Shown one piece after another: positions 31,621-52,797 of a stretch of 52,865 nt of DNA. The first letter of the stretch is position 1, and each line of letters begins with the position of its first letter. This stretch comes from Nanobdellati archaeon (lineage in GTDB: Archaea > EX4484-52 > GLR71): contig JAHYJO010000010.1 in NCBI GenBank assembly GCA_019429125.1, positions 1 through 52,865 of the forward strand, in the 5' to 3' direction. A program made the position numbers and the translations under genes. The notes beneath the pieces were generated by a model that was not told the DNA's origin, searched no databases, and saw nothing but the letters and a program-made list of their open reading frames with translations.

Positions 31621-32814
31621 TCAAATGTTGAACTCGTCGCTTAAATATTCTGATACTTTAATATATACCTTACCTGATATCGCAAGCCTTATAGTCCTTG
31701 TCCTACCATGCCTGCCACGACTTATTACTTTTGTGTTTATAATACTTAACATGTCAAGCTCGGCAATAAGATCACTTATCCTTCTCTGTGTCAATGGCTT
31801 TATGCCAATCTTGTCACACAATGTCACATAAAGGTCAAAGACGTCGCCTGTGAATATGTATTCTGAACTCTTTTCACTTAACATGAATATTGTCTTAAGA
31901 AGTATCTTTGACTGTTTTGGTTGGGTCTTGACTGCCTCAATTATATGGTCCATGTCTATCTTTGATTCTGCGCAATCAACATGGTCAATTGTTATGTTTG
32001 TCATGTTCTGGCGTTCGGCAAGTTCTCCTGACACTCTTAAAAGATTCAATGCGCGTCTTGCATCGCCGTGCTCTTGAGCTGCAAGGGCTGCACATTTCTG
32101 GATTACACCGTCTGATATTACATCATTGTTGAATGCAATTGTAGCCCTTTCTAAAAGTATATCTTTTATCTGGAGCGCGTTGTAAGGTGGAAATATCATC
32201 TCTTCGTCTGAAAGTGAACTTTTGACTCGAGCATCCATATTCTCTGTGAAAGACAGATTGTTTGATATGCCAACTATTGTCACTTTTGAATTCTCTGTAT
32301 CCTGATTTATCCTTGTCAGCGTGTACAGCAATTCATCGCCAACTTTTTCTATTAAAGCGTCTATCTCATCAAGAATTAAAATTACTACACCTTTCTTTTC
32401 CTCAAGTGCTTCAAAAAATATCTTGTATACCTGATCTGTAGGAAGACCTGTAGGTGGTACTTTTTTTCCTAGAAGGCTTGCAAGGTATGCTATTAGACGG
32501 TATTCTGTGTCTGCAACTCTTTTCATCTTGCAATTTACATATAATACATCTATTATTACGTTGTTTGCAGCTGCTATCTCTTTAAGCTGACTGGTAACAT
32601 ATTGTGTCACAAGAGTTTTTCCAGTGCCTGTCATACCATATATGAATATGTTTGACGGCCTGTCTCCCTTTAAAGCAGGAGCAAGAATACCACCTATAAG
32701 ATTAATCTGCTCTTCACGGTGAGGTACAGTATCTGGTGTATATTTTATTGTAAGTGCATTTTTGTCTTTGAAAAAAGTCTTTGATTGCATATATGTCTCA
32801 AACAAGTTCTTCAA
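31621..32814 (-). CDS. Orc1/Cdc6 replication initiator
   Basis: This 397-residue initiator of the AAA+ Orc1/Cdc6 family binds ORB motifs and helps load MCM. Walker A is GMTGTGKT at 60-67 (counting from TTG 32814), and Walker B is Ile-Leu-Ile-Leu-Asp-Glu-Ile-Asp near 145-152. A lid domain and a C-terminal winged helix (Thr-Gln-Arg-Arg-Ile-Ser-Asp-Leu) follow. The start is irregular: TTG 32814, with a ribosome-binding site and ATG at 32833 in another frame (see findings). Four ORB-like motifs lie just upstream, consistent with initiator binding near its own gene. Confidence 0.92.
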   Translation of the reverse strand: MKNLFETYMQSKTFFKDKNALTIKYTPDTVPHREEQINLIGGILAPALKGDRPSNIFIYGMTGTGKTLVTQYVTSQLKEIAAANNVIIDVLYVNCKMKRVADTEYRLIAYLASLLGKKVPPTGLPTDQVYKIFFEALEEKKGVVILILDEIDALIEKVGDELLYTLTRINQDTENSKVTIVGISNNLSFTENMDARVKSSLSDEEMIFPPYNALQIKDILLERATIAFNNDVISDGVIQKCAALAAQEHGDARRALNLLRVSGELAERQNMTNITIDHVDCAESKIDMDHIIEAVKTQPKQSKILLKTIFMLSEKSSEYIFTGDVFDLYVTLCDKIGIKPLTQRRISDLIAELDMLSIINTKVISRGRHGRTRTIRLAISGKVYIKVSEYLSDEFNI

Positions 32815-32867
32815 TGTCTTTTGGCTCAGTCATAACACCTTTTAAAAATATAATTTTTTCTATAATA

Positions 32868-33118
32868 TTCTACAAGAAACAATGGTATATTATAATTTTA
32901 TATGTTTTTTATCTTGTATATATTTCTATAGGAAATAAAGGTTTAAATAGTTATTGTTTGTAATTTGTTTTTAATTGTTTTGACCCTCACCCCTTTGTTT
33001 CTTTTGGAACCTTTTAATTTAATTAGTATTAGAATAAAATATAACATTGTTATATATTATATTAAAAAAAAATGTGTTTGTTTATGTAATGGTGTTCTAC
33101 TGGAAATAATGGTGTGAG
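32868..33118. other. Putative replication origin: ORB cluster beside cdc6
   Basis: Four ORB-like motifs with the core TTCyAnnrGAAAyaAwGG: 32868-32885 (+), 32924-32942 (+), 32987-33011 (minus strand, gttccaaaagaaacaaagg) and 33094-33118 (+, ttctactggaaataatgg). The last two share the full core plus a ggtgag-like tail and point in opposite directions. Between them lies an 80-bp, almost pure A/T stretch that could serve as the unwinding element. Position next to cdc6 is typical of archaeal oriC. Confidence 0.75.
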
Positions 33119-33139
33119 TGACAACCTAAAGGGGTAACT

Positions 33140-33718
33140 CTACAAAATGTTTCCACCTTGATAGTTGTTCTCTTTTTGGTCATTATAATGTGCATTTGAA
33201 TCTAAGATGTTGAAAGAAACTTGCATGAACCTTACACCGATGTCAATTGCTGCACCAGGCAAAGATGGTTTGAACATGACAGTCAAAATACCACGGTAAC
33301 CTGCTTCACCAAATCCTGTGACTATATCACACTGGCAATATCTGAAAAGTGATGATCTTGGTTCTATCTCAAAATTTGTGTTTTCAGGTGTGTTGAGCTT
33401 TTCGCAGGTGACGGCAAGGTATGTCTTTTTTTCGTCAAGATATATCAATGTGCCTTCTTTTAAGACTATAATATTCTCAGTCTTTAGGTTTTTTATGTGA
33501 TTTTCAAAACCTTTCAATACATATGCATTACCTAGTTTAGGTTTTATTGCGCTATTTTTATCTATTCTTAACTGGCCTGCCTTTTTTACTTCGATTAATA
33601 CAGCAAGCCTGAAATCAAAGCCATTTGCAGTTATTTGATAATCAATGTCTTTGTAATCAGAAATTATATTTTTCTCTTTTATGAGATTTTTCAGGGTTTC
33701 TTTGCTTAAGACTGTCAT
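33140..33718 (-). CDS. dCTP deaminase/dUTPase-family protein
   Basis: From ATG 33718 the protein has 192 residues. It has dUTPase/Dcd motifs: Pro-Arg-Ser-Ser-Leu-Phe-Arg (motif 2), Gly-Phe-Gly-Glu-Ala-Gly-Tyr-Arg-Gly (motif 3) and a Gln-Gly-Gly-Asn C-terminus. The family keeps uracil out of DNA by producing dUMP or dUTP control. It neighbours EndoQ, an enzyme that cuts at uracil and other deaminated bases, so the pair may serve one purpose. Which of the two activities it has cannot be decided from sequence alone. Confidence 0.85.
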   Translation of the reverse strand: MTVLSKETLKNLIKEKNIISDYKDIDYQITANGFDFRLAVLIEVKKAGQLRIDKNSAIKPKLGNAYVLKGFENHIKNLKTENIIVLKEGTLIYLDEKKTYLAVTCEKLNTPENTNFEIEPRSSLFRYCQCDIVTGFGEAGYRGILTVMFKPSLPGAAIDIGVRFMQVSFNILDSNAHYNDQKENNYQGGNIL

Positions 33719-33763
33719 AAATAATACCATAAAGATTTATGTTTTAAAATTTTAAAACTGTTT

Positions 33764-35083
33764 ATGTTAATTAATTGTGATTTTCATTCGCATTCAGGGT
33801 ATGCGGGCGGTGTGGGACAGATATCGCTTTTAGATCTTGAGGTTGCAATGGAAAAAAAAGGTATAGATGTTTTTGGGACTGGCGATTGTCTTCATCCACA
33901 ATGGCGAGAATTTTTAAAAGATAATCTTGTTGAAAGAAAAGAGGGACTTTTTTCAAACAAAGATAATAAGGCACGGTTTATGCTACAGACCGAAGTAATA
34001 TTTACTGCTGCTGTAGGTTCAGGCAGGAAATCTGTGCATACTGTCATTTTGTTTCCGTCATTTGAATCTGTTGAGAATACATGTAAGCTTTTAGATGGAA
34101 TGGGTGTCAAAAATACTATTGGAAGACCGTTCATAAAATGTGTTGATAGGGTTGATGTAAGTAATAGATTGTCAAAGATACTTGATGTTGATGATAAGAT
34201 TGAAGCTATACCTGCGCATGTCATGACACCTCAAGGTGTTTACGGATCAAATAATCCGATTGATAAGATGAAAGATTTTTATGGTGCTGCTACAGAGAGG
34301 ATAACAGCTGTTGAAACTGGGCTTTCGGCTGATCCTGAGATTCTTTCTTTGATACCTGAACTTGATGATTATTCGCTGATTTCAAACAGTGATGCGCACT
34401 CGGCTGCACTCAACAGGATGGGCCGTGAGTTTACAACTGTTGATACAACTTCTGTTTCTTATGGAAATATAATTGATTCTATAAGAAAGAATAAGATTGC
34501 AAGGACAGCAGAATTTAATCCTACTGAAGGCAGGTTCTTTCTTACGGGGCATAGGGCAGGCAAAAAAGGGCATAATGATGCTTATTGTGTGTTTTCACCA
34601 AAATATACACCTAAAGATAACAAGTGTCCCATATGCAGTAAAAAGCTTACAATAGGTGTCCTTGCGCGAGCATTACAGCTGAAAGAAATTCAGGGTGGTA
34701 CAAGACAATTTGGTGAACTGTCACCATCAACTAAAGATTTTGTCAGGATGGTGCCATTGGTTGAGGTCATTGCACATTCAATTGGTGTATTGTCTGTTGT
34801 CTCTGTAAAAGTTGTGGAACTTTATGAAAAAATTATAGGTATATTTGGAAATGAAGCGCGGATATGGTTTGAAAAAGATGAGACTATAAGGAAAAAGCTT
34901 GCTTCGGCTGAACTTTCAGATAATGTGATTGAAAATATAATTAAAGTTAAAAATGATGATTTCTGTTTTTCACCACCTGGGTTTGATGGAACTTACGGCA
35001 AGTTTAGTATTGGTGGGAAAGAAGATGTGTTTAATGTCAATTTAATATCTGGATATGTGCCAGGACAGAAAAGACTGTTTTAA
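33764..35083 (+). CDS. Endonuclease Q (EndoQ), PHP-domain DNA repair nuclease
   Basis: The 439-residue protein has an N-terminal PHP domain with the metal-binding Asp-Phe-His-Ser-His-Ser-Gly-Tyr motif at 6-13, a Gly-Thr-Gly-Asp-Cys-Leu-His-Pro segment, Ser-Asn-Ser-Asp-Ala-His further on, and a C-terminal zinc-binding module with Cys-Pro-Ile-Cys. EndoQ from Thermococcales nicks 5' of uracil, hypoxanthine and abasic sites. The call is by family recognition. Neighbouring Dcd and DP1 make repair of deaminated DNA at replication plausible. Confidence 0.88.
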   Translation: MLINCDFHSHSGYAGGVGQISLLDLEVAMEKKGIDVFGTGDCLHPQWREFLKDNLVERKEGLFSNKDNKARFMLQTEVIFTAAVGSGRKSVHTVILFPSFESVENTCKLLDGMGVKNTIGRPFIKCVDRVDVSNRLSKILDVDDKIEAIPAHVMTPQGVYGSNNPIDKMKDFYGAATERITAVETGLSADPEILSLIPELDDYSLISNSDAHSAALNRMGREFTTVDTTSVSYGNIIDSIRKNKIARTAEFNPTEGRFFLTGHRAGKKGHNDAYCVFSPKYTPKDNKCPICSKKLTIGVLARALQLKEIQGGTRQFGELSPSTKDFVRMVPLVEVIAHSIGVLSVVSVKVVELYEKIIGIFGNEARIWFEKDETIRKKLASAELSDNVIENIIKVKNDDFCFSPPGFDGTYGKFSIGGKEDVFNVNLISGYVPGQKRLF

Positions 35084-35173
35084 TTGCTTTAGATTTTTTG
35101 TTATTTTTAGATTTCTATATGTTTTGTTTAGTATTGTCTATAATTTTAAAACATTTAATTACTCAATTAGGGT

Positions 35174-36661
35174 ATGAAAGATATGAACAATAAAGATGTT
35201 GCTGGCATTTTCATTGATGCAGGTATACTTGCTGAGTCTGAAGCTGTTGATTATGTGGTTGATAAAGGTATTGATGCAGTTTTACTTTCTGAAAAACTTA
35301 TGAGTGCAGGCAAATTTTTTCTTACAAGAGAGGTTATTGAAGCTTTAGATAGAGAGGATAAAATTAAAGATATAGGAAATGTAGTTGAGGTCAAGGCTGC
35401 ATCAAAAAAGATTATAGCTAAAGATATTGCAGGGTCTGTCAAAGTGCACAGTAAAGCTGAAGAACCTCAAAATACTAAGACATTGACAGATTTTGTAGCT
35501 TATTTTAATGATAGGTATGAAAAGATAAAAAATATTATTTTGGCACACACTGAAGTTAAGAACACTATGTCTATAGGTAGGCTCAATGAGGCGACAGATG
35601 AAAAGAATGTTTGCGTGATAGCTATCATATCTGATATTAATATTAGTAAGAATGGGCATCACATATTGAATATTGAGGATCCGACAGGGACTATGACTGC
35701 AATAATCATGAAAGACAAAAATATAGGTGAAGATACAATTATTCCTGATGAAATCATAGCAGTATTTGGAAGTGTGAGTAATGGTACTATGTTTGTAAAC
35801 AGTATGGTTTTTCCTGACGTGCCTGTCATGAATAGCTATGACAAGAGGATTGAGGATGACGTGAGCGCAGTACTTATATCTGATATCCATATGGGTAGTA
35901 ATGAGTATCTGCAGAAGGTTGAGGACAGGTTTATTAAATGGCTTAAAAGTGGGGATGATAGTGCGGGAAAAGTCAAGTATATCTGCATATCAGGGGATAA
36001 TGTTGACGGCGTCGGCATATATCCAGGGCAGAAACAGGACCTTAAGATTGTAGACATTTATAATCAGTATCTTGCATTTGAAAAGTTTATTGAAAGAATT
36101 CCTGAATATATTGAGATTGTCATCATTCCTGGAAACCATGATGCTGTACGTCTTGCTGAACCACAGCCGTCAATTGGTAAGAATTATTTTCCTAACATTA
36201 CAAGTTTTAAGAATGTTCATCTGGGACCTAATCCATGTCGGGTGGAACTTCACGCTATGAATGGGAGGGTAGGTGTGGATGTGCTCATGTATCATGGTTA
36301 CAGTTTCACGAAGATAATTAATGCAATACCTTCACTTCGCGTGAAAGGAATGGACCAGCCTGAATATGTTATGACTGAGCTTCTTCGGAAACGGCATTTG
36401 GCGCCTATGTATAAGTCCACGCAGCTTATGCCATCAGGGGATGATCCGCATGTCATAAAGAGTGTTCCTGATATATTTCAGACGGGAGATCTTCACTCGT
36501 TTGCAGTCAAGACATATAGGGGTGTGTTGATGGTGTCTGCTTCAACGTTTCAGGGACAGACGTCGTTTATGGATCGTGTGGGGCATGAGTCTAATCCGGG
36601 TAAGGTTACAGTTGTTTCTTTAAAAGATAAGAGACCCAAGGTCTTGGATCTTTTGAATTGA
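35174..36661 (+). CDS. DNA polymerase D small subunit DP1 (3'-5' exonuclease)
   Basis: The 495-residue DP1 carries the calcineurin-like phosphoesterase set: Ser-Asp-Ile-His-Met-Gly at 236-241, Ser-Gly-Asp-Asn-Val-Asp, Pro-Gly-Asn-His-Asp, Tyr-His-Gly-Tyr-Ser and Thr-Gly-Asp-Leu-His-Ser-Phe. All metal ligands are intact, so proofreading should be active. An OB-fold region precedes (about 130-215) and an N-terminal helical domain starts the protein. ATG 35174 is close to an agggt sequence; ATG 35183 is an alternative. Confidence 0.94.
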   Translation: MKDMNNKDVAGIFIDAGILAESEAVDYVVDKGIDAVLLSEKLMSAGKFFLTREVIEALDREDKIKDIGNVVEVKAASKKIIAKDIAGSVKVHSKAEEPQNTKTLTDFVAYFNDRYEKIKNIILAHTEVKNTMSIGRLNEATDEKNVCVIAIISDINISKNGHHILNIEDPTGTMTAIIMKDKNIGEDTIIPDEIIAVFGSVSNGTMFVNSMVFPDVPVMNSYDKRIEDDVSAVLISDIHMGSNEYLQKVEDRFIKWLKSGDDSAGKVKYICISGDNVDGVGIYPGQKQDLKIVDIYNQYLAFEKFIERIPEYIEIVIIPGNHDAVRLAEPQPSIGKNYFPNITSFKNVHLGPNPCRVELHAMNGRVGVDVLMYHGYSFTKIINAIPSLRVKGMDQPEYVMTELLRKRHLAPMYKSTQLMPSGDDPHVIKSVPDIFQTGDLHSFAVKTYRGVLMVSASTFQGQTSFMDRVGHESNPGKVTVVSLKDKRPKVLDLLN

Positions 36662-36903
36662 TGTTTTTTCGTAAATGTTTTCAGAAGGGAATTAAAAGAC
36701 CGGGCAGAGTTACTTGCGCCCGGTCGGGGGTTTGGATTTATTGAGGGACTATAAGTATTATTGGTAAATTGAGTATATATAGTTTTCTGTAAATGTTGAT
36801 ATATATGTTATTATTTTATGTATTTATTGTTAGTTTTTTTGTTTAATTATGTATTTATTTACATATTTTTATATACAACCTTATCTAAATTGTCATATGT
36901 GAT
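36662..36903. other. Intergenic region with a GC-rich hairpin
   Basis: There is no gene. At 36698-36725 an 8-bp GC-rich stem, gaccgggc/gcccggtc, encloses a 12-nt loop. It stands out from the AT-rich surroundings and is followed by a G run rather than a T run, so it is not a simple intrinsic terminator. The rest holds AT-rich direct repeats (ttatgtatttatt twice near 36815-36860) and a TATA-like tttttatata about 30 nt before the next gene. Confidence 0.6.
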
Positions 36904-37389
36904 GTGATGGATTTATCAGATAATGAGAAAAAAATACTTTTGTATCTTTTTGATAACCCTCTTGCAACTAATCATACTATTGCCACATACATGAACATAC
37001 ATCATGCAACTGTTAGCGCCATAAGAAAGAAGCTTGAGGAAACGGCTGGGCTGTCTTATAAAGTGGATATAAATCCAAAGAAAGCAGGACTAGATGGGGT
37101 TTATGTGATATATTTTTCTCTTAATCCTGCTTCAAGAGGTGAAAAAGAATTTTCCGCTTTTGTAACGATGGTTCAAAATATTGAAGGAGTAATTGGGGTG
37201 GGGCTTGTTACAAACAGTGTTTGGGACGGTTGGTTTAGGGTGATTTCTAATCCTTTTGATTCTGATAGGATATTTTTTATTTTAAAAAGAAAGATTGGTA
37301 GTTATGTGGATAAGATAGAGATAATAAAATATGCAGATGCACGAGAGTCGGGTGCGCAGAACATGAATAAACTAATTGAGATGCTGTAA
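36904..37389 (+). CDS. Winged-helix transcription regulator
   Basis: The 161-residue protein has an N-terminal winged helix (Asn-Glu-Lys-Lys-Ile-Leu-Leu-Tyr-Leu through Ala-Thr-Val-Ser-Ala-Ile-Arg-Lys-Lys-Leu) and a C-terminal domain with a Gly-Val-Gly-Leu-Val-Thr-Asn-Ser strand. It resembles Lrp/AsnC-like regulators in layout but has no clear RAM motif. It lies between the PolD subunit genes, so it could control them; that is inferred only from position. Confidence 0.72.
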   Translation: MMDLSDNEKKILLYLFDNPLATNHTIATYMNIHHATVSAIRKKLEETAGLSYKVDINPKKAGLDGVYVIYFSLNPASRGEKEFSAFVTMVQNIEGVIGVGLVTNSVWDGWFRVISNPFDSDRIFFILKRKIGSYVDKIEIIKYADARESGAQNMNKLIEML

Positions 37390-37393
37390 GGGT

Positions 37394-37594
37394 TCAGCCC
37401 AGGATAGAGATTATTGCGGGTGCAACATATTTTGTGTCAATAGGGTTATTGAAAGATAATATTATGTTTTTCTTATCATTTTCATTATCAGTATTAGCTA
37501 TATCATAGTCGCCTATCATTTCAGAATTGCCGAGTTTTTTTAGTAGCTCATCTGTGTTTCCTTTAGCCATGAGTTCAATAGTTCGTATAAACAT
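37394..37594 (-). CDS. Hypothetical 66-residue protein
   Basis: An ATG at 37594 gives a 66-residue acidic protein with an N-terminal helix (Glu-Leu-Met-Ala-Lys-Gly) and a Lys-Tyr-Val-Ala-Pro-Ala-Ile-Ile-Ser-Ile-Leu ending. No family is recognised. It converges on the preceding regulator with a 4-nt gap and diverges from the DP2 gene. It is plausible as a real small gene because it fills the gap neatly. Confidence 0.5.
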   Translation of the reverse strand: MFIRTIELMAKGNTDELLKKLGNSEMIGDYDIANTDNENDKKNIILSFNNPIDTKYVAPAIISILG

Positions 37595-37798
37595 GTTTTA
37601 TAACCTCTTAAGTTTTAAAAGCAATATCATATGATGTGGTGTTATATTACTATACGTGTATAAGACTAGAAAAGTATATAAATCTGAAATATAAGTATAT
37701 ATATTCTTTGTTGTGCGTCTCTTAAACACAACAAGGTTTAATATCTTTTTCAAACAAATATTATAAAAATAGACATTAAAAGTTATATTATTCTTACG

Positions 37799-40700
37799 GT
37801 GGTCATTGATTTGGAAATAGATAAGGAGACAAAAGAATATTTTGATTCTCTGGATAGTGAGATAGATAAGGCGTATGAGCTTGCAGGTAGGGCTAGGCAA
37901 ATGAATCTAGACCCTGAGCAGAAGGTAGATATACCTATAGCTGAAGATTTGGCTGCGCGTGTTGAGGGGCTTGTCTCTATGATATTTCCAGAATTTATAG
38001 GGTCGGGCCTTAAGGAAGGCATACGTGAACTTGAAGCTGAATATGGCAAGAATGATGAGCGGGTCGCGCTTGTGGTATCTGAAAGGGTCGCTAAAGAAAG
38101 ATATTCTAAATTCGAATCTAAAGAGAGAGCGATTGAAGGAGGCATAAGAGTAGGTCTTGCGTATCTTACTTTAGGTGTCGTGACTGCGCCTCTTGAAGGT
38201 ATTAGTTCTGTGAATATAAAAGACGGTTATATTTCAATATATTATTCTGGACCTATCAGAAGTGCTGGGGGAACAGCATCAGCTATGTCGGTCCTTATAG
38301 CTGATTACCTTCGGAAAAAGATGGGTCTTGCTAAATATGAGGCAAATGAGACTGAAAGGAAAAGGTATGCAGCTGAAGTTGAAGATTATTACAGGCTTGT
38401 TGGGATGCAGTATCATCCGATTGATAAAGAGATTGAGATGATAATAGAAAATGTCAATGTGTGCCTTGATGGGGATCCTACTGAAAAGTTTGAGGTGTCA
38501 AACTATAAGGATCTACCTAGAGTTGAGACAAACCGTATTCGTGGAGGTATGTGTCTTGTTGTGGGTGAAGGGCTTACGTTAAAGGCACCAAAGCTTCTTA
38601 AAAGAGTAAACAAGTTCGGCAAAGAGTTTGATTTTGAGGACTGGTTATGGTTGGAAAAATATAATGAGCTTAAATTGAGCGTGAACTCGGTTAAAACTGA
38701 GGGCGTTGAAGTTGACGTGAAATACACGCCGTCTACAAAATACATTTCTAAAGTGATTGCGGGAAGACCTATACTGTCACATCCGGCACGGCCTGGTGGG
38801 TTCAGGTTAAGGTATGGTAGGTCGAGGACGTCAGGTATTGCGGCCACTGCACTTCACCCCGGTGTTTTTCATCTTACGCAGTTTGTGGCTGTAGGCACTC
38901 AGCTTGCGACTGAGTTACCTGGCAAGGCAACGGTATGCGCACCTGTGGATACTGTTGAGCCACCTGTCGTACTTTTAAAAGATGGTACGGTACGAAAGAT
39001 AATAACGGCCTACGATGCAAAGAAATACAGGGGCCAGGTACATAAGATATTGTCTATGGGGGACATACTTATACCTTATGGTGAATTTGTGAGTCAGAAC
39101 CACATACTTCTGCCGTCTTGTTACTGCGAGGAATGGTGGGGGCTTGAAGTTCTTCGTGAGATGAAAGATAAAAAATGCTCAATTGATGCAATACCGTTTG
39201 CAAACAAGCCGTATAAAATACCGTCATTTGATTCTGCTGTAATCATATCAAAAGAGTTGTCAGTGCCTATGCATCCTGTGTACAATCATTTCTGGCATGA
39301 CCTGTCAAAAGATGAACTTGCAAATCTTGTTCGTGCGGTTGCTATGGGTACTGTTGTAGGAGATACTTTGTTGATTGATTGTTCTGTTAAGAAGATGCTT
39401 GAGGTGTTATGCATACTTCACAGGGTGGATGAGACTTCTGGGAACGTTGTTTTTGATAAGGATGAGATGGATACAATCCTATTCACGTTGGGCAATCCGT
39501 CTAGTGTGAATGTGGATAAGTTATGTACAGTTGTAGACAAATCTAAAAATACGGTTGAGGCAATATCATCACTTTCAGGAGTTGTGTTCCATGAGAAAGG
39601 CATTACACGTGTAGGGCTTAAGATGGGAAGGCCTGAAAAAGCTGAAAGACGGCTTATGAAAGGAAGACCACAGGTAATATTTCCTTGTGGTGAAGAGGGA
39701 GGCAGGATGAGAAATCTGATGGAATCGTATTCTGCAGGTAAAGTGTCTTCATATTTTCCGACTTTTAGATGTCCTAAGTGCAACATGCAGGCATACGGCA
39801 AGATATGCTTTAAATGTGGTGATAACACACAGGAATACAGGTTCTGTTCAAAATGTAAAAAGAGCGTTCCTGACAAAGAGCATTGTGGATATCCGACAGA
39901 CAGGTTTAGGCATGTGCAGATTAATCCAAAAGAGGCAATCGATATTGCAGCAAAGAATTTGGGGATTAAAGTGTTGCCAAAACTGCTTAAGGGTGTGAAG
40001 GGTGCATCTGGGCGCGATAAAGACATGGAGATTATTGAGAAAGGACTATTGCGTGAAAAGTATGGGCTTTATGTGAACAAGGATGGGACTACACGATATG
40101 ATGCAAGTGATGTGCCTATAAGTCATTTCAAGCCTAAAGAGATTGATGTCAGCATAACGGTGTTGAAAAAACACGGGTATGTCAATGATGTCTACGGAAA
40201 ACCGCTCATAGATGATAATCAGGTTTTAGAACTCAAGGTGCAGGACATCATCATATCTGACAATTCTGATTTTTCTAGTGCTGATTATTTCATTAACGTG
40301 TGTAAATTTGTTGATGAGCTTCTTGTCAAGGTGTATGGTCTTGAACCGTATTATAACGTGAAGAAGAAAGAAGATCTTGTGGGGCAGATGGTGATAGGGC
40401 TTGCGCCACATACGTCTGCGGGGATTATTGGTAGGATTATCGGGTTTACGCCGGCCAAAGTATGTTATGCACACCCGTTTTGGCACTCTGCTAAAAGACG
40501 GAACTGTGACGGTGATGAAGATTCTATACTGTTACTTATGGACGCGCTTGTTAATTTCTCTAGGAAATTCTTACCTACTACTCGTGGGGCTGCTACAATG
40601 GATGCGCCACTTGTTCTTACTACACATCTTGATCCTGAAGAGGTAGATGATGAGGCATGGAGTGTTGATATTGTTGATTCATATCCGTTGACATTTTATG

Positions 40701-41263
40701 AAGATACAATGGAGTACAAGAAACCATGGGAAATAAGAGATAAGATTGAGCTTGTTGAAAACAGGATGGGTAAGCCTGGCGTGTATCATTCCATGTTCAC
40801 GCATGATACTGATAATTTAAATGATGCAGTTTTTAAGTCACGTTATGTTGTTTTAGAGACTATGAGCGAAAAGCTTGATGCACAGCTTAAGCTGGCTACA
40901 CAGGCGGTTGCTGTTGACGAAAGTGATGTGTCTGAAAAGATTTTAGAGAAACATCTCTTAAAAGATATAAAAGGTAATATGAGGACGTTTTCAGGGCAGA
41001 GGCTTCGTTGCGTGACCTGTAATGAGAAATATCGTCGTGTGCCTTTGACTGGTAAATGTTCTGCATGTGGAGGTAAACTGCTTCTTACAGTATCTGAAGG
41101 GACAATTCGTAAATATATTGAGCCGTCAAAACATATTATGAATAATTTTGAGGTCAGTTTATATTTGAGGCAACAATTCGCAATTTTAGAAGCCGAGGTT
41201 GATGCATTTTTCGGTAAACGCGCAAGACAGTTTAAGCTTGGCATGTTTGGCAAGAAAGACTAA
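37799..41263 (+). CDS. DNA polymerase D large subunit DP2
   Basis: The 1154-residue catalytic subunit starts at GTG 37799. It has the active-site Asn-Cys-Asp-Gly-Asp-Glu-Asp motif with Asp904 and Asp906, the conserved Gly-Pro-Ile-Arg-Ser-Ala-Gly-Gly-Thr and His-Pro-Phe-Trp-His-Ser-Ala-Lys-Arg-Arg segments, and zinc fingers near 660-700 and 1080-1095. No intein interrupts it. The last residues, Gln-Phe-Lys-Leu-Gly-Met-Phe-Gly, resemble a PCNA-binding PIP box. Four ORB-like motifs follow the stop codon within 280 bp. Confidence 0.95.
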   Translation: MVIDLEIDKETKEYFDSLDSEIDKAYELAGRARQMNLDPEQKVDIPIAEDLAARVEGLVSMIFPEFIGSGLKEGIRELEAEYGKNDERVALVVSERVAKERYSKFESKERAIEGGIRVGLAYLTLGVVTAPLEGISSVNIKDGYISIYYSGPIRSAGGTASAMSVLIADYLRKKMGLAKYEANETERKRYAAEVEDYYRLVGMQYHPIDKEIEMIIENVNVCLDGDPTEKFEVSNYKDLPRVETNRIRGGMCLVVGEGLTLKAPKLLKRVNKFGKEFDFEDWLWLEKYNELKLSVNSVKTEGVEVDVKYTPSTKYISKVIAGRPILSHPARPGGFRLRYGRSRTSGIAATALHPGVFHLTQFVAVGTQLATELPGKATVCAPVDTVEPPVVLLKDGTVRKIITAYDAKKYRGQVHKILSMGDILIPYGEFVSQNHILLPSCYCEEWWGLEVLREMKDKKCSIDAIPFANKPYKIPSFDSAVIISKELSVPMHPVYNHFWHDLSKDELANLVRAVAMGTVVGDTLLIDCSVKKMLEVLCILHRVDETSGNVVFDKDEMDTILFTLGNPSSVNVDKLCTVVDKSKNTVEAISSLSGVVFHEKGITRVGLKMGRPEKAERRLMKGRPQVIFPCGEEGGRMRNLMESYSAGKVSSYFPTFRCPKCNMQAYGKICFKCGDNTQEYRFCSKCKKSVPDKEHCGYPTDRFRHVQINPKEAIDIAAKNLGIKVLPKLLKGVKGASGRDKDMEIIEKGLLREKYGLYVNKDGTTRYDASDVPISHFKPKEIDVSITVLKKHGYVNDVYGKPLIDDNQVLELKVQDIIISDNSDFSSADYFINVCKFVDELLVKVYGLEPYYNVKKKEDLVGQMVIGLAPHTSAGIIGRIIGFTPAKVCYAHPFWHSAKRRNCDGDEDSILLLMDALVNFSRKFLPTTRGAATMDAPLVLTTHLDPEEVDDEAWSVDIVDSYPLTFYEDTMEYKKPWEIRDKIELVENRMGKPGVYHSMFTHDTDNLNDAVFKSRYVVLETMSEKLDAQLKLATQAVAVDESDVSEKILEKHLLKDIKGNMRTFSGQRLRCVTCNEKYRRVPLTGKCSACGGKLLLTVSEGTIRKYIEPSKHIMNNFEVSLYLRQQFAILEAEVDAFFGKRARQFKLGMFGKKD

Positions 41264-41295
41264 TTGGGTGATTGAACCAAAATATATATAAGCAT

Positions 41296-41540
41296 GTTCC
41301 ATAAGAAATGAACAGGTCGTGTACCTTTTGTTGTCATGTGTGCATAGGAAATGAAGGGGTGTGTTGTTGAGATGTAGCATCCACCAAAACCTTTATAAAC
41401 CTCTCCATAGGAAATGATGGGGTTTCCGTGAAGGTTGCATTATTCATGTGAGAGATAAGTATGGTCGCTGTTTCTTGTTTTGTGTTTTAAAAAGTTGCTG
41501 GTTGCGTATTTTTGGGTGTTCCATAAGAAATGAACGGGTG
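41296..41540 (+). other. Second ORB-like cluster downstream of DP2
   Basis: Four motifs in the same orientation: 41296-41321 (ttccataagaaatgaacagg), 41340-41363 (gcataggaaatgaagggg), 41401-41425 (tccataggaaatgatgggg) and 41518-41540 (ttccataagaaatgaacggg). All match the ORB plan of a ttcca/ggaa dyad followed by a G-rich tail. The 330-bp gap has no gene. It may be a second origin, an auxiliary Orc1/Cdc6 binding region, or a titration site. Confidence 0.65.
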
Positions 41541-41593
41541 TTAATTTCACATAACTTTTGTTTGTTTACGTGAAGTTGAAATAAATTGTTTTT

Positions 41594-42244
41594 TCAATAA
41601 GAATACTTCTTTATTGTGTTGTTTATACTTTCTTTTGCGTCTGTTTCTATAATTTTTCCGTGGCCTGGAAGAATGGTTGTTACACTTATTGTTTTTAGGA
41701 GACCAAGTGATTGTATCATTTCGTTTTCATTACTTCCTGGCAAGTCGGTGCGGCCTATGGCATTTAAAAATATTGTGTCTCCTGTGAACAGTATCTTTTT
41801 TTCTTTTTCGTATAGGCATATGGAACCTTCAGTGTGGCCAGGGGTATGGATAACTTTAAGGAGCATGTCATCTATACGTATGGTGTCCGAATCAAAAAGT
41901 TTTAGATCCACTTTTTGTGATATTAGTTCTTTTCCAAAAGCAAAGGCACAGCTTTTTGAATTGTCGCCAGTTTCAAGAATTTGTGTGTCATCAGAATGCA
42001 TTGCAATCTTTGCATTCGTAAATAAGGATGCACCACCTATGTGATCATAGTGGGCATGAGTGAAGATGATCCGTTCTATGTTGTCAGGGGTTATGTTTAG
42101 GGAGGCAAGCGCTTTTTCAAGAATGTTTTTGTGGAAGCCTAAACCTGTATCTATCAAGATTTTTTTCTTTATAAGGTATATGTTTGATTCAAGACCTCCT
42201 AGCTGTATAAGGTGGATGTCGTCTGTTATCTTTTGGATTTCCAT
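41594..42244 (-). CDS. MBL-fold metallo-hydrolase
   Basis: The 216-residue protein is a glyoxalase II-like metallo-beta-lactamase fold enzyme. The metal motif Thr-His-Ala-His-Tyr-Asp-His-Ile-Gly-Gly is near 60-70, His-Thr-Pro-Gly-His-Thr-Glu-Gly is near 133-140, and Gly-Asp-Thr-Ile-Phe precedes the last His. Such proteins hydrolyse thioesters, lactones or phosphodiesters. Substrate is not known. ATG 42244 gives a natural N-terminus. Confidence 0.88.
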   Translation of the reverse strand: MEIQKITDDIHLIQLGGLESNIYLIKKKILIDTGLGFHKNILEKALASLNITPDNIERIIFTHAHYDHIGGASLFTNAKIAMHSDDTQILETGDNSKSCAFAFGKELISQKVDLKLFDSDTIRIDDMLLKVIHTPGHTEGSICLYEKEKKILFTGDTIFLNAIGRTDLPGSNENEMIQSLGLLKTISVTTILPGHGKIIETDAKESINNTIKKYSY

Positions 42245-51967: not shown

Positions 51968-52474
51968 ATGGATTATAAGATTAAGTTTCTGGGAAAAGAT
52001 GCAATTTTAAAGGTTGAGAATGATGAGGGCGCAAAGGCAATGATAGATAAAGATAACCTTGTCCTTTCGTCGGCTTTTGCTATGATAACCCCTGACAATA
52101 ATGTGCTTGATAAATGGAATGTCAATTATTATAACGGTACAACTGATGAACTTACTAACTTTCTGGTCACACAGGATTCGGTTGAGCATATTGAAACATC
52201 TAAAAGGGTGCACACTACAGAGGTCAAACCAATTGATTTGTCTAATGTCGCTATACCTATCACAATGATACTGTCTTGCGCTATGGTTCGGTCTGAGCTT
52301 GAATTTCCGCATGAGCCAAATAAGGTTTTCATAACACTCCATCACAATGATGAATACAAGAATGAGTGCTGGACCATTACATTATTTAGCACTAATCTGT
52401 TTTTGTACAAGATTAAGATTGATGCGATAGATGGTAAGATAATCAGTTCTGAGGTCAAGCATCTGTTAAAATGA
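51968..52474 (+). CDS. Hypothetical 168-residue protein, possible PepSY-like C-terminus
   Basis: A soluble protein with no membrane span. The last third runs Trp-Thr-Ile-Thr-Leu, Tyr-Lys-Ile-Lys-Ile-Asp-Ala-Ile-Asp-Gly-Lys-Ile-Ile, similar in pattern to PepSY-like domains (a strand, then Ile-Asp-Ala-x-x-Gly-Lys). The N-terminal two thirds are unrecognised. MITE copy B2 is inserted 12 nt after its stop codon. Confidence 0.6.
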   Translation: MDYKIKFLGKDAILKVENDEGAKAMIDKDNLVLSSAFAMITPDNNVLDKWNVNYYNGTTDELTNFLVTQDSVEHIETSKRVHTTEVKPIDLSNVAIPITMILSCAMVRSELEFPHEPNKVFITLHHNDEYKNECWTITLFSTNLFLYKIKIDAIDGKIISSEVKHLLK

Positions 52475-52485
52475 GTGATTTTTCC

Positions 52486-52654
52486 GGCACTGTCCATTTT
52501 TTGAGTTATTTCAAACAGAATGTAGTTAAATTAAATACCTTTATTTCTTTTGTAATTCGACGTGAAATGTGTATATTAAATGGATTTCTGTAGGAGTTTA
52601 TATACAAACAATATCTAAAAAATATTCAAAATCACTCACTTTTTGAACAGTGCC
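52486..52654 (+). mobile_element. MITE-like element family B, copy 2
   Basis: A 169-bp copy of the family B element at 30748-30915. It keeps the same ends (ggcactgtcca at the left and tgaacagtgcc at the right) and an exact 8-bp target duplication, atttttcc, on both sides. The internal sequence differs from copy 1 at about a dozen positions. It lies 12 nt after the PepSY-like gene. Confidence 0.9.
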
Positions 52655-52797
52655 ATTTTTCCGAAATTTTTATATATTTTGTGTGTCTAATATATACCAT
52701 GTTTACTGACTTTAGTATGAATGTTGTTGAATTTAATCTATAGTCAATGCGATAAATACTTAGAAACTATATATACATCAAAAACTAAATATCTAGT

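Follow-up and report, generated by a model that had tools for sequence, protein, structure and literature searches.

At oriC1 of Sulfolobus, inverted ORBs flank an AT-rich unwinding element that carries midway a short conserved motif, ucm, which is also present elsewhere in the genome; UBP binds this motif, and the activity of the origin depends on it (PMC12141716). The same 2025 work asks whether other archaeal lineages have UBP analogues at their origins (PMC12141716). In Haloarcula hispanica, the oriC1 enhancer is a G-rich inverted repeat flanked by the inverted ORB pair of that origin; the 11 ORBs clustered in oriC2D, immediately downstream of cdc6E, reduce origin activity, which is probably an effect of Cdc6 titration (PMC3936714). 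Like the locus described here, Pyrococcus oriC combines a single cdc6, ORB repeats directly upstream of it and replication genes nearby; the available part of its description mentions neither a palindrome centred in the unwinding element nor an ORB array after the DP2 gene, both of which are present here (PMC4010727). For DPANN origins, literature searches found no description, only incidental matches.

The genome analysed consists of 1.16 Mb in 32 contigs, and the window is the whole of contig C23, 52,865 nucleotides long. The stretch of it that a preliminary description had flagged as oriC is a chromosomal replication origin. The origin itself is a good further example of the Orc1/Cdc6-ORB kind; the surprise is the putative operator inside its unwinding element. 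The features of the locus are the following.

31621..32814, minus strand: orc1/cdc6 initiator gene, Orc1 type (Pfam Cdc6_C 5e-27, Cdc6_lid 1e-25; NCBIfam ORC1-type equivalog above cut-off)
32868..32889, plus strand: ORB-a, weak (exact pattern match; kept in six congeneric genomes)
32924..32945, plus strand: ORB-b, with TTTAAA in place of the G tail, putative cdc6 TATA box on the minus strand (invariant in six genomes)
32988..33009, minus strand: ORB-c, full ORB with G tail (TTCCAAAAGAAACAAAGGGGTG), facing the unwinding element (exact pattern match and published ORB motif)
33010..33094, no strand: AT-rich putative duplex unwinding element (DUE) between the inverted ORBs (most AT-rich 60 bp; inside the GC3-skew change-point interval 32790-33142)
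33040..33054, no strand: palindrome TATAACATTGTTATA at the DUE centre (invariant arms in six genomes; within a 17-bp palindrome, 33039-33055)
33095..33116, plus strand: ORB-d, facing the unwinding element (exact pattern match and published ORB motif)
33140..33730, minus strand: dCTP deaminase/dUTPase-fold gene (Pfam DCD 2.5e-15)
33764..35083, plus strand: gene for a TIGR00375-like protein (NCBIfam 4e-33, below that model's cut-off)
35174..36661, plus strand: DNA polymerase D small subunit DP1 (Pfam and NCBIfam)
37799..41263, plus strand: DNA polymerase D large subunit DP2 (Pfam PolC_DP2 domains, 5e-127)
41297..41540, plus strand: second ORB array, four same-direction ORBs at 41297, 41340, 41403 and 41519 (convergent gap directly 3' of DP2)

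Positions 31621-41263 form an island of replication genes (cdc6, the dUTPase/dCTP-deaminase fold, the TIGR00375-like protein, the PolD small subunit, an HTH protein and the PolD large subunit), with ORB arrays on both of its flanks. The best PDB relatives of its Cdc6 are Sulfolobus Cdc6-1 (2qby_A) and an archaeal Cdc6 homologue (2v1u_A). The protein is 92% identical to Cdc6 of the MAG 'Candidatus Nanohaloarchaea GLR72', and the records of its other close relatives bear the labels Nanohaloarchaea, Aenigmatarchaeota or DPANN, which suggests that the source is a DPANN archaeon close to these groups. A second, distant cdc6 paralogue is present at C22:7509-8492, near which searches with the family-specific and the published ORB motifs found no ORB.

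The four ORB-like sites of the preliminary description all proved exact: a pattern search of the window placed TTCYANNRGAAAYAAWGG with no mismatch at 32868(+), 32924(+), 32992(-) and 33095(+), and these were also the only zero-mismatch matches in the 1.16 Mb of the genome. As had been stated, the cluster lies directly beside orc1/cdc6, which runs on the minus strand, and the two sites reported to be oppositely oriented around an AT stretch are ORB-c (33009 to 32988) and ORB-d (from 33095). That stretch had been described as 80 bp of A and T only; it is indeed AT-rich, but it measures 85 bp and about 88% A+T, so that it is not purely A/T. Over its best 80 bp the A+T content is 88.7%, uninterrupted A/T extends for no more than 24 bp (33050-33073), and the 60-bp segment with the highest A+T content in the window (93%) lies within it. 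In the order ORB-c(-), 33010-33094, ORB-d(+), inverted ORBs flank the AT-rich unwinding element, as they do at Sulfolobus oriC1. Near-matches to the ORB pattern elsewhere in the genome were mostly TTACAAAAGAAATRAAGG, carried by a dispersed MITE-like repeat, and were rejected as ORBs. One MITE-like element with inverted ends occupies positions 52450-52680 of the window; its inner sequence, which mimics the ORB pattern, occurs in about 20 copies in the genome.

A test independent of the motif in the preliminary description was made with the common archaeal ORB motif, published as TCCA[CG]T[TG]GAAA[TC][GA]AAGGGGT (PMC4164010), allowing up to three mismatches. Pattern searches of the whole 1.16-Mb genome returned four matches, all of them in the window, where 0.02 were expected; two belong to the cdc6-side cluster and two lie at 41.3-41.4 kb. 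A spread of the motif over the genome, which had been envisaged as an argument against an origin, was not found, matches being confined to the window. With a looser, family-specific ORB pattern, matches in congeneric genomes were found almost only at the same two places, where these regions were assembled.

The raw cumulative skew of the window, which has its minimum near 19 kb and not 33 kb, is ambiguous alone. Since raw skew was uninformative, GC skew at third codon positions (GC3) was calculated with plus-strand and minus-strand genes kept apart. To the left of 33 kb, GC3 skew was +0.06 and +0.01 on the two gene strands, that is, near zero and not negative; on the right, it was +0.44 and +0.42. 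The best change-point, 32,790-33,142 (permutation p=0.0005), was seen on both gene strands and falls exactly at the cluster, where the preliminary description had proposed to look for one. The change in TA3 skew occurs earlier, near 21.8 kb. In G008, which belongs to a related genus, cdc6 is at 107.8-109.0 kb and ORBs are found at 109.1-109.3 and 119.2-119.7 kb; in this homologous region, raw cumulative GC skew stops falling and TA skew turns.

The survey of relatives covered 66 DPANN loci in which the DNA upstream of cdc6 was long enough; ORB-like sites preceded cdc6 in 63 of them, and an inverted ORB pair faced an AT-rich element in 43, counts that are not independent since the loci are related by descent; some of the surveyed genomes are incomplete MAGs. 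The confined motif, the skew switch and a layout conserved in most of these relatives support the earlier oriC reading, with the AT stretch as unwinding element. We infer from these features that Orc1/Cdc6 would sit on the inverted ORB-c and ORB-d, the dyad ends pointing towards the 85-bp AT-rich element, and would from there direct loading of the MCM helicase at this element; fork direction would switch at oriC. ORB-b reads TTCTATAGGAAATAAAGG-TTTAAATA, a TATA-like sequence for cdc6 occupying the place of the G tail, and such an ORB followed by TTTA was found near cdc6 in 21 of the 66 loci. Because it is fused to the putative cdc6 TATA box, ORB-b is a candidate autoregulatory operator, and Orc1/Cdc6 bound there, over the likely cdc6 promoter, would regulate its own gene.

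The second ORB array (41297-41540) is a separate ORB-rich intergenic region near the origin. In this, and in being devoid of a melting element, it resembles oriC2D of Haloarcula hispanica (PMC3936714). It differs in that it does not directly follow cdc6: its four same-direction ORBs come after a polymerase gene, that of DP2, 8.2 kb from the origin. The array is kept in the six congeneric genomes. Same-direction ORB pairs were found after DP2 in 9 of 41 DP2 loci and after the polymerase in 5 of 14 loci with a B-family enzyme, in neither case ever in opposite orientation. It is probably an array that titrates Orc1, a reading preferred because oriC2D is the nearest functional precedent; by holding excess Orc1, it would damp initiation. 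One might instead see in it a transcription-regulating element, a promoter or an attenuator after DP2, given that a conserved BRE/TATA-like ACCAAAAnnTATATAA precedes two of the four ORBs (41264-41600 of the window, and equivalents in other genera), and that ACGTGAA/TTCACGT is enriched in post-polymerase ORB arrays (9/14, versus 0/31 in controls). The array, however, lies between convergent genes and has no gene downstream on that strand, a search of 31-43 kb against Rfam found no RNA, and the neighbouring gene changes between lineages whereas the array stays. We regard this explanation as the less likely one, though it deserves to be kept in mind, and titration of Orc1 is retained below.

When the six congeneric origins were aligned, the ATATAACA-N-TGTTATAT arms of the palindrome in the unwinding element were invariant and its centre base varied. 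Exact copies of TATAACAnTGTTATA were present in 27 of 70 DPANN origins (loci again related by descent), versus none in 60 sets of dinucleotide shuffles, and 33 copies were counted in 61 kb upstream of cdc6, versus three in 1,097 kb elsewhere. In 24 loci, 23-30 bp separated the palindrome from the ORB facing it, the value for the window being 30 bp, whereas the distance to the cdc6 start varied widely. Within the DUE, the centre of the palindrome has a relative position of 0.44 in the window and a median one of 0.57 over 29 cases; where the unwinding element is compact, the palindrome sits close to the midpoint. One origin region, upstream of cdc6 in L114, contains an array of about six to eight TATAACAnTGTTATA-like palindromes.

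A conserved motif is thus found midway in the unwinding element, and its fixed spacing from the ORB together with its place in mid-DUE makes its position and role resemble those of ucm at Sulfolobus oriC1. As with ucm, the motif is also present elsewhere in the genome (PMC12141716). Comparison by eye did not find TATAACAnTGTTATA within the published ucm oligonucleotide, so that the place is similar but the motif is not ucm: its sequence is unrelated and perfectly palindromic, its genomic copies are few instead of hundreds, and it is common to the promoters of a metabolic regulon and of an HTH regulator. The oriC1 enhancer of Haloarcula hispanica is likewise an inverted repeat between two inverted ORBs (PMC3936714), but it is G-rich, whereas the repeat described here is AT-rich and a putative regulon operator.

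The other copies of the palindrome in the source genome stand before genes for two cysteine desulfurases, one NifS-type and one SufS-type, for a cysteine synthase and for an HTH protein of 127 aa, where they lie between the TATA box and the start codon or close to the start. This set is kept in congeners and, for sufS and cysK, in G008. In distant genomes, seven NifS-type genes have the exact palindrome 6-26 bp upstream; it was also found before cysteine synthase, Suf-like ABC ATPase, MsrAB and peroxiredoxin genes, and in the divergent promoter of endonuclease III-like and Lhr-like genes. In the single 1.03-Mb contig of NHA25 (G017), it occurs exactly twice genome-wide, in the HTH gene promoter and at the origin. 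The simplest reading of this distribution is that the palindrome serves, at the regulon and at the origin alike, as the operator of the autoregulated HTH protein, which would also control the Fe-S/cysteine and peroxide-defence genes.

This candidate regulator, encoded at C22:29405-29788, is a small XRE-like HTH protein of 127 aa with a C-terminal Cys cluster. Orthologues were detected in 37 of the 50 genomes searched, and the promoters of 12 of 30 orthologues carried the palindrome, the background rate being 0.45%. At E<=1e-10, the regulator was present in 23 of 25 genomes with an origin palindrome and in 8 of 25 without it, an association confounded by the fact that its presence or absence follows lineage. 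Two genomes, G019 and G028, had an origin palindrome and no match to the regulator; these assemblies are possibly incomplete or mixed. Against Pfam, the protein gave only HTH_3, BetR and ParB-HTH matches below cut-off, and against NCBIfam no match. Its structure model is an all-helical HTH fold (pLDDT 84), for which a Foldseek search of the PDB returned no significant match (best E 1.5).

Bacterial IscR and SufR are autoregulated and control cysteine desulfurase and Fe-S genes through a palindromic operator. The candidate would share with them autoregulation and a palindromic operator at genes of this kind. It differs in being a small XRE-like HTH protein, with no above-cut-off Pfam match and no solved relative; a recognisable family domain of Rrf2-type regulators (IscR) or of other named Fe-S regulators was not found in it, nor was a matching archaeal regulator found in the literature searched. 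In nanohaloarchaeal orthologues the Cys cluster is absent and the operator is kept, which makes Fe-S sensing uncertain, the least certain step of the proposed mechanism.

We infer that an autoregulated Fe-S/sulfur regulator may bind the unwinding element of the origin, in the manner of UBP at the Sulfolobus ucm. An HTH dimer at the DUE centre might block melting or organise two helicases, and would in this way gate or shape helicase loading. If the cysteines of the regulator hold a cluster, occupancy of the origin by the dimer would track Fe-S/sulfur status. The combined reading, in which oriC, a DUE palindrome acting as operator of the Cys-rich HTH protein, autoregulation through ORB-b and titration by the second array go together, appears to us highly probable.

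The palindrome could also be simply an operator of cdc6, which would place this gene in the Fe-S/cysteine regulon and give the palindrome no direct role in origin melting. The motif is a promoter element elsewhere and cdc6 is the gene nearest to it. In promoters of the regulon, however, it adjoins the TATA box, at 6-50 bp from the start codon, whereas at origins it is 87-280 bp from cdc6 in most loci, between inverted ORBs, with a spacing set relative to the facing ORB and not to the gene. Moreover, the likely cdc6 TATA box, in ORB-b, is located beyond ORB-c, on its other side. Such a simple operator of cdc6 is therefore rather unlikely, and an operator acting within the unwinding element is preferred.

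That the array at 41.3-41.5 kb is a second origin, or the true one, is improbable. Its ORBs are nearer to the consensus, its position is conserved, and the best GC3 break of G008 (115.1-115.7 kb) falls between the two arrays of that genome. On the other hand, all its sites point in one direction, it has no AT-rich element (64% A+T, versus 77% at the cdc6 side), exact or one-mismatch copies of the palindrome are absent from it in the window, the GC3 break of the window is at the cdc6-side cluster, and a post-polymerase array is absent in 41 of the 55 relatives examined. Finally, one site of the cdc6-side cluster overlaps the putative cdc6 TATA box, but that the cluster consists merely of transcription factor sites for cdc6, with no origin, is hardly credible given a skew switch exactly there on both gene strands, inverted ORBs facing an AT-rich element in most relatives, and sites matching the published ORB motif.

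With the cluster taken as oriC, its unwinding element can be compared with that of other DPANN lineages. In Woesearchaeota-type origins, the operator of the regulator was looked for and not found; TTTCTATATAGAAA had 11 copies upstream of cdc6 and two elsewhere, with at most one mismatch. The presence of this other palindrome in some of these origins suggests that different lineages may use different protein partners at the same origin position. Four Woesearchaeota-type regulator promoters were inspected; in one of them a variant, TTAACAnTGTTAA, occurs twice, and the corresponding origin lacks it. Other observations were made in these loci. Within the 80 loci, TTCTATATAGAA was found as seven exact copies upstream of cdc6 in Woesearchaeota-type origins (L089, L097, L100, L104, L106, L116 and L121) and nowhere else. 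In three Woesearchaeota-type loci (L105:3740, L117:3385 and L083:3942), a single strong ORB falls within the coding sequence of a coiled-coil/HTH protein, some 6 kb away from cdc6, and is translated there as S(S)IGNxG. At L110:3688-7479 and similar Aenigmatarchaeota loci, a 344-aa protein with no Pfam family is encoded between cdc6 and the B-family polymerase; stretches similarly placed in sister loci match DP1 weakly, and may correspond to a DP1-derived PolB partner.

The presence of one palindrome both at the origin and before iron-sulfur and cysteine genes gives a hint that the timing of DNA copying may be under the control of sulfur or redox status. More tentatively, in a broad DPANN group the DUE may be the operator of an Fe-S/sulfur-sensing regulator that couples initiation directly to Fe-S/redox state, and a swappable dimer-binding site in the DUE may be a general design. 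As a possible answer to the question of UBP analogues, the survey offers a candidate protein, a 15-bp site and a geometry that is fixed across dozens of genomes, all of which can be tested in vitro. Were the regulator to sense Fe-S clusters or sulfur, it would provide, in mostly uncultured organisms, a direct link from cofactor supply to the start of replication.
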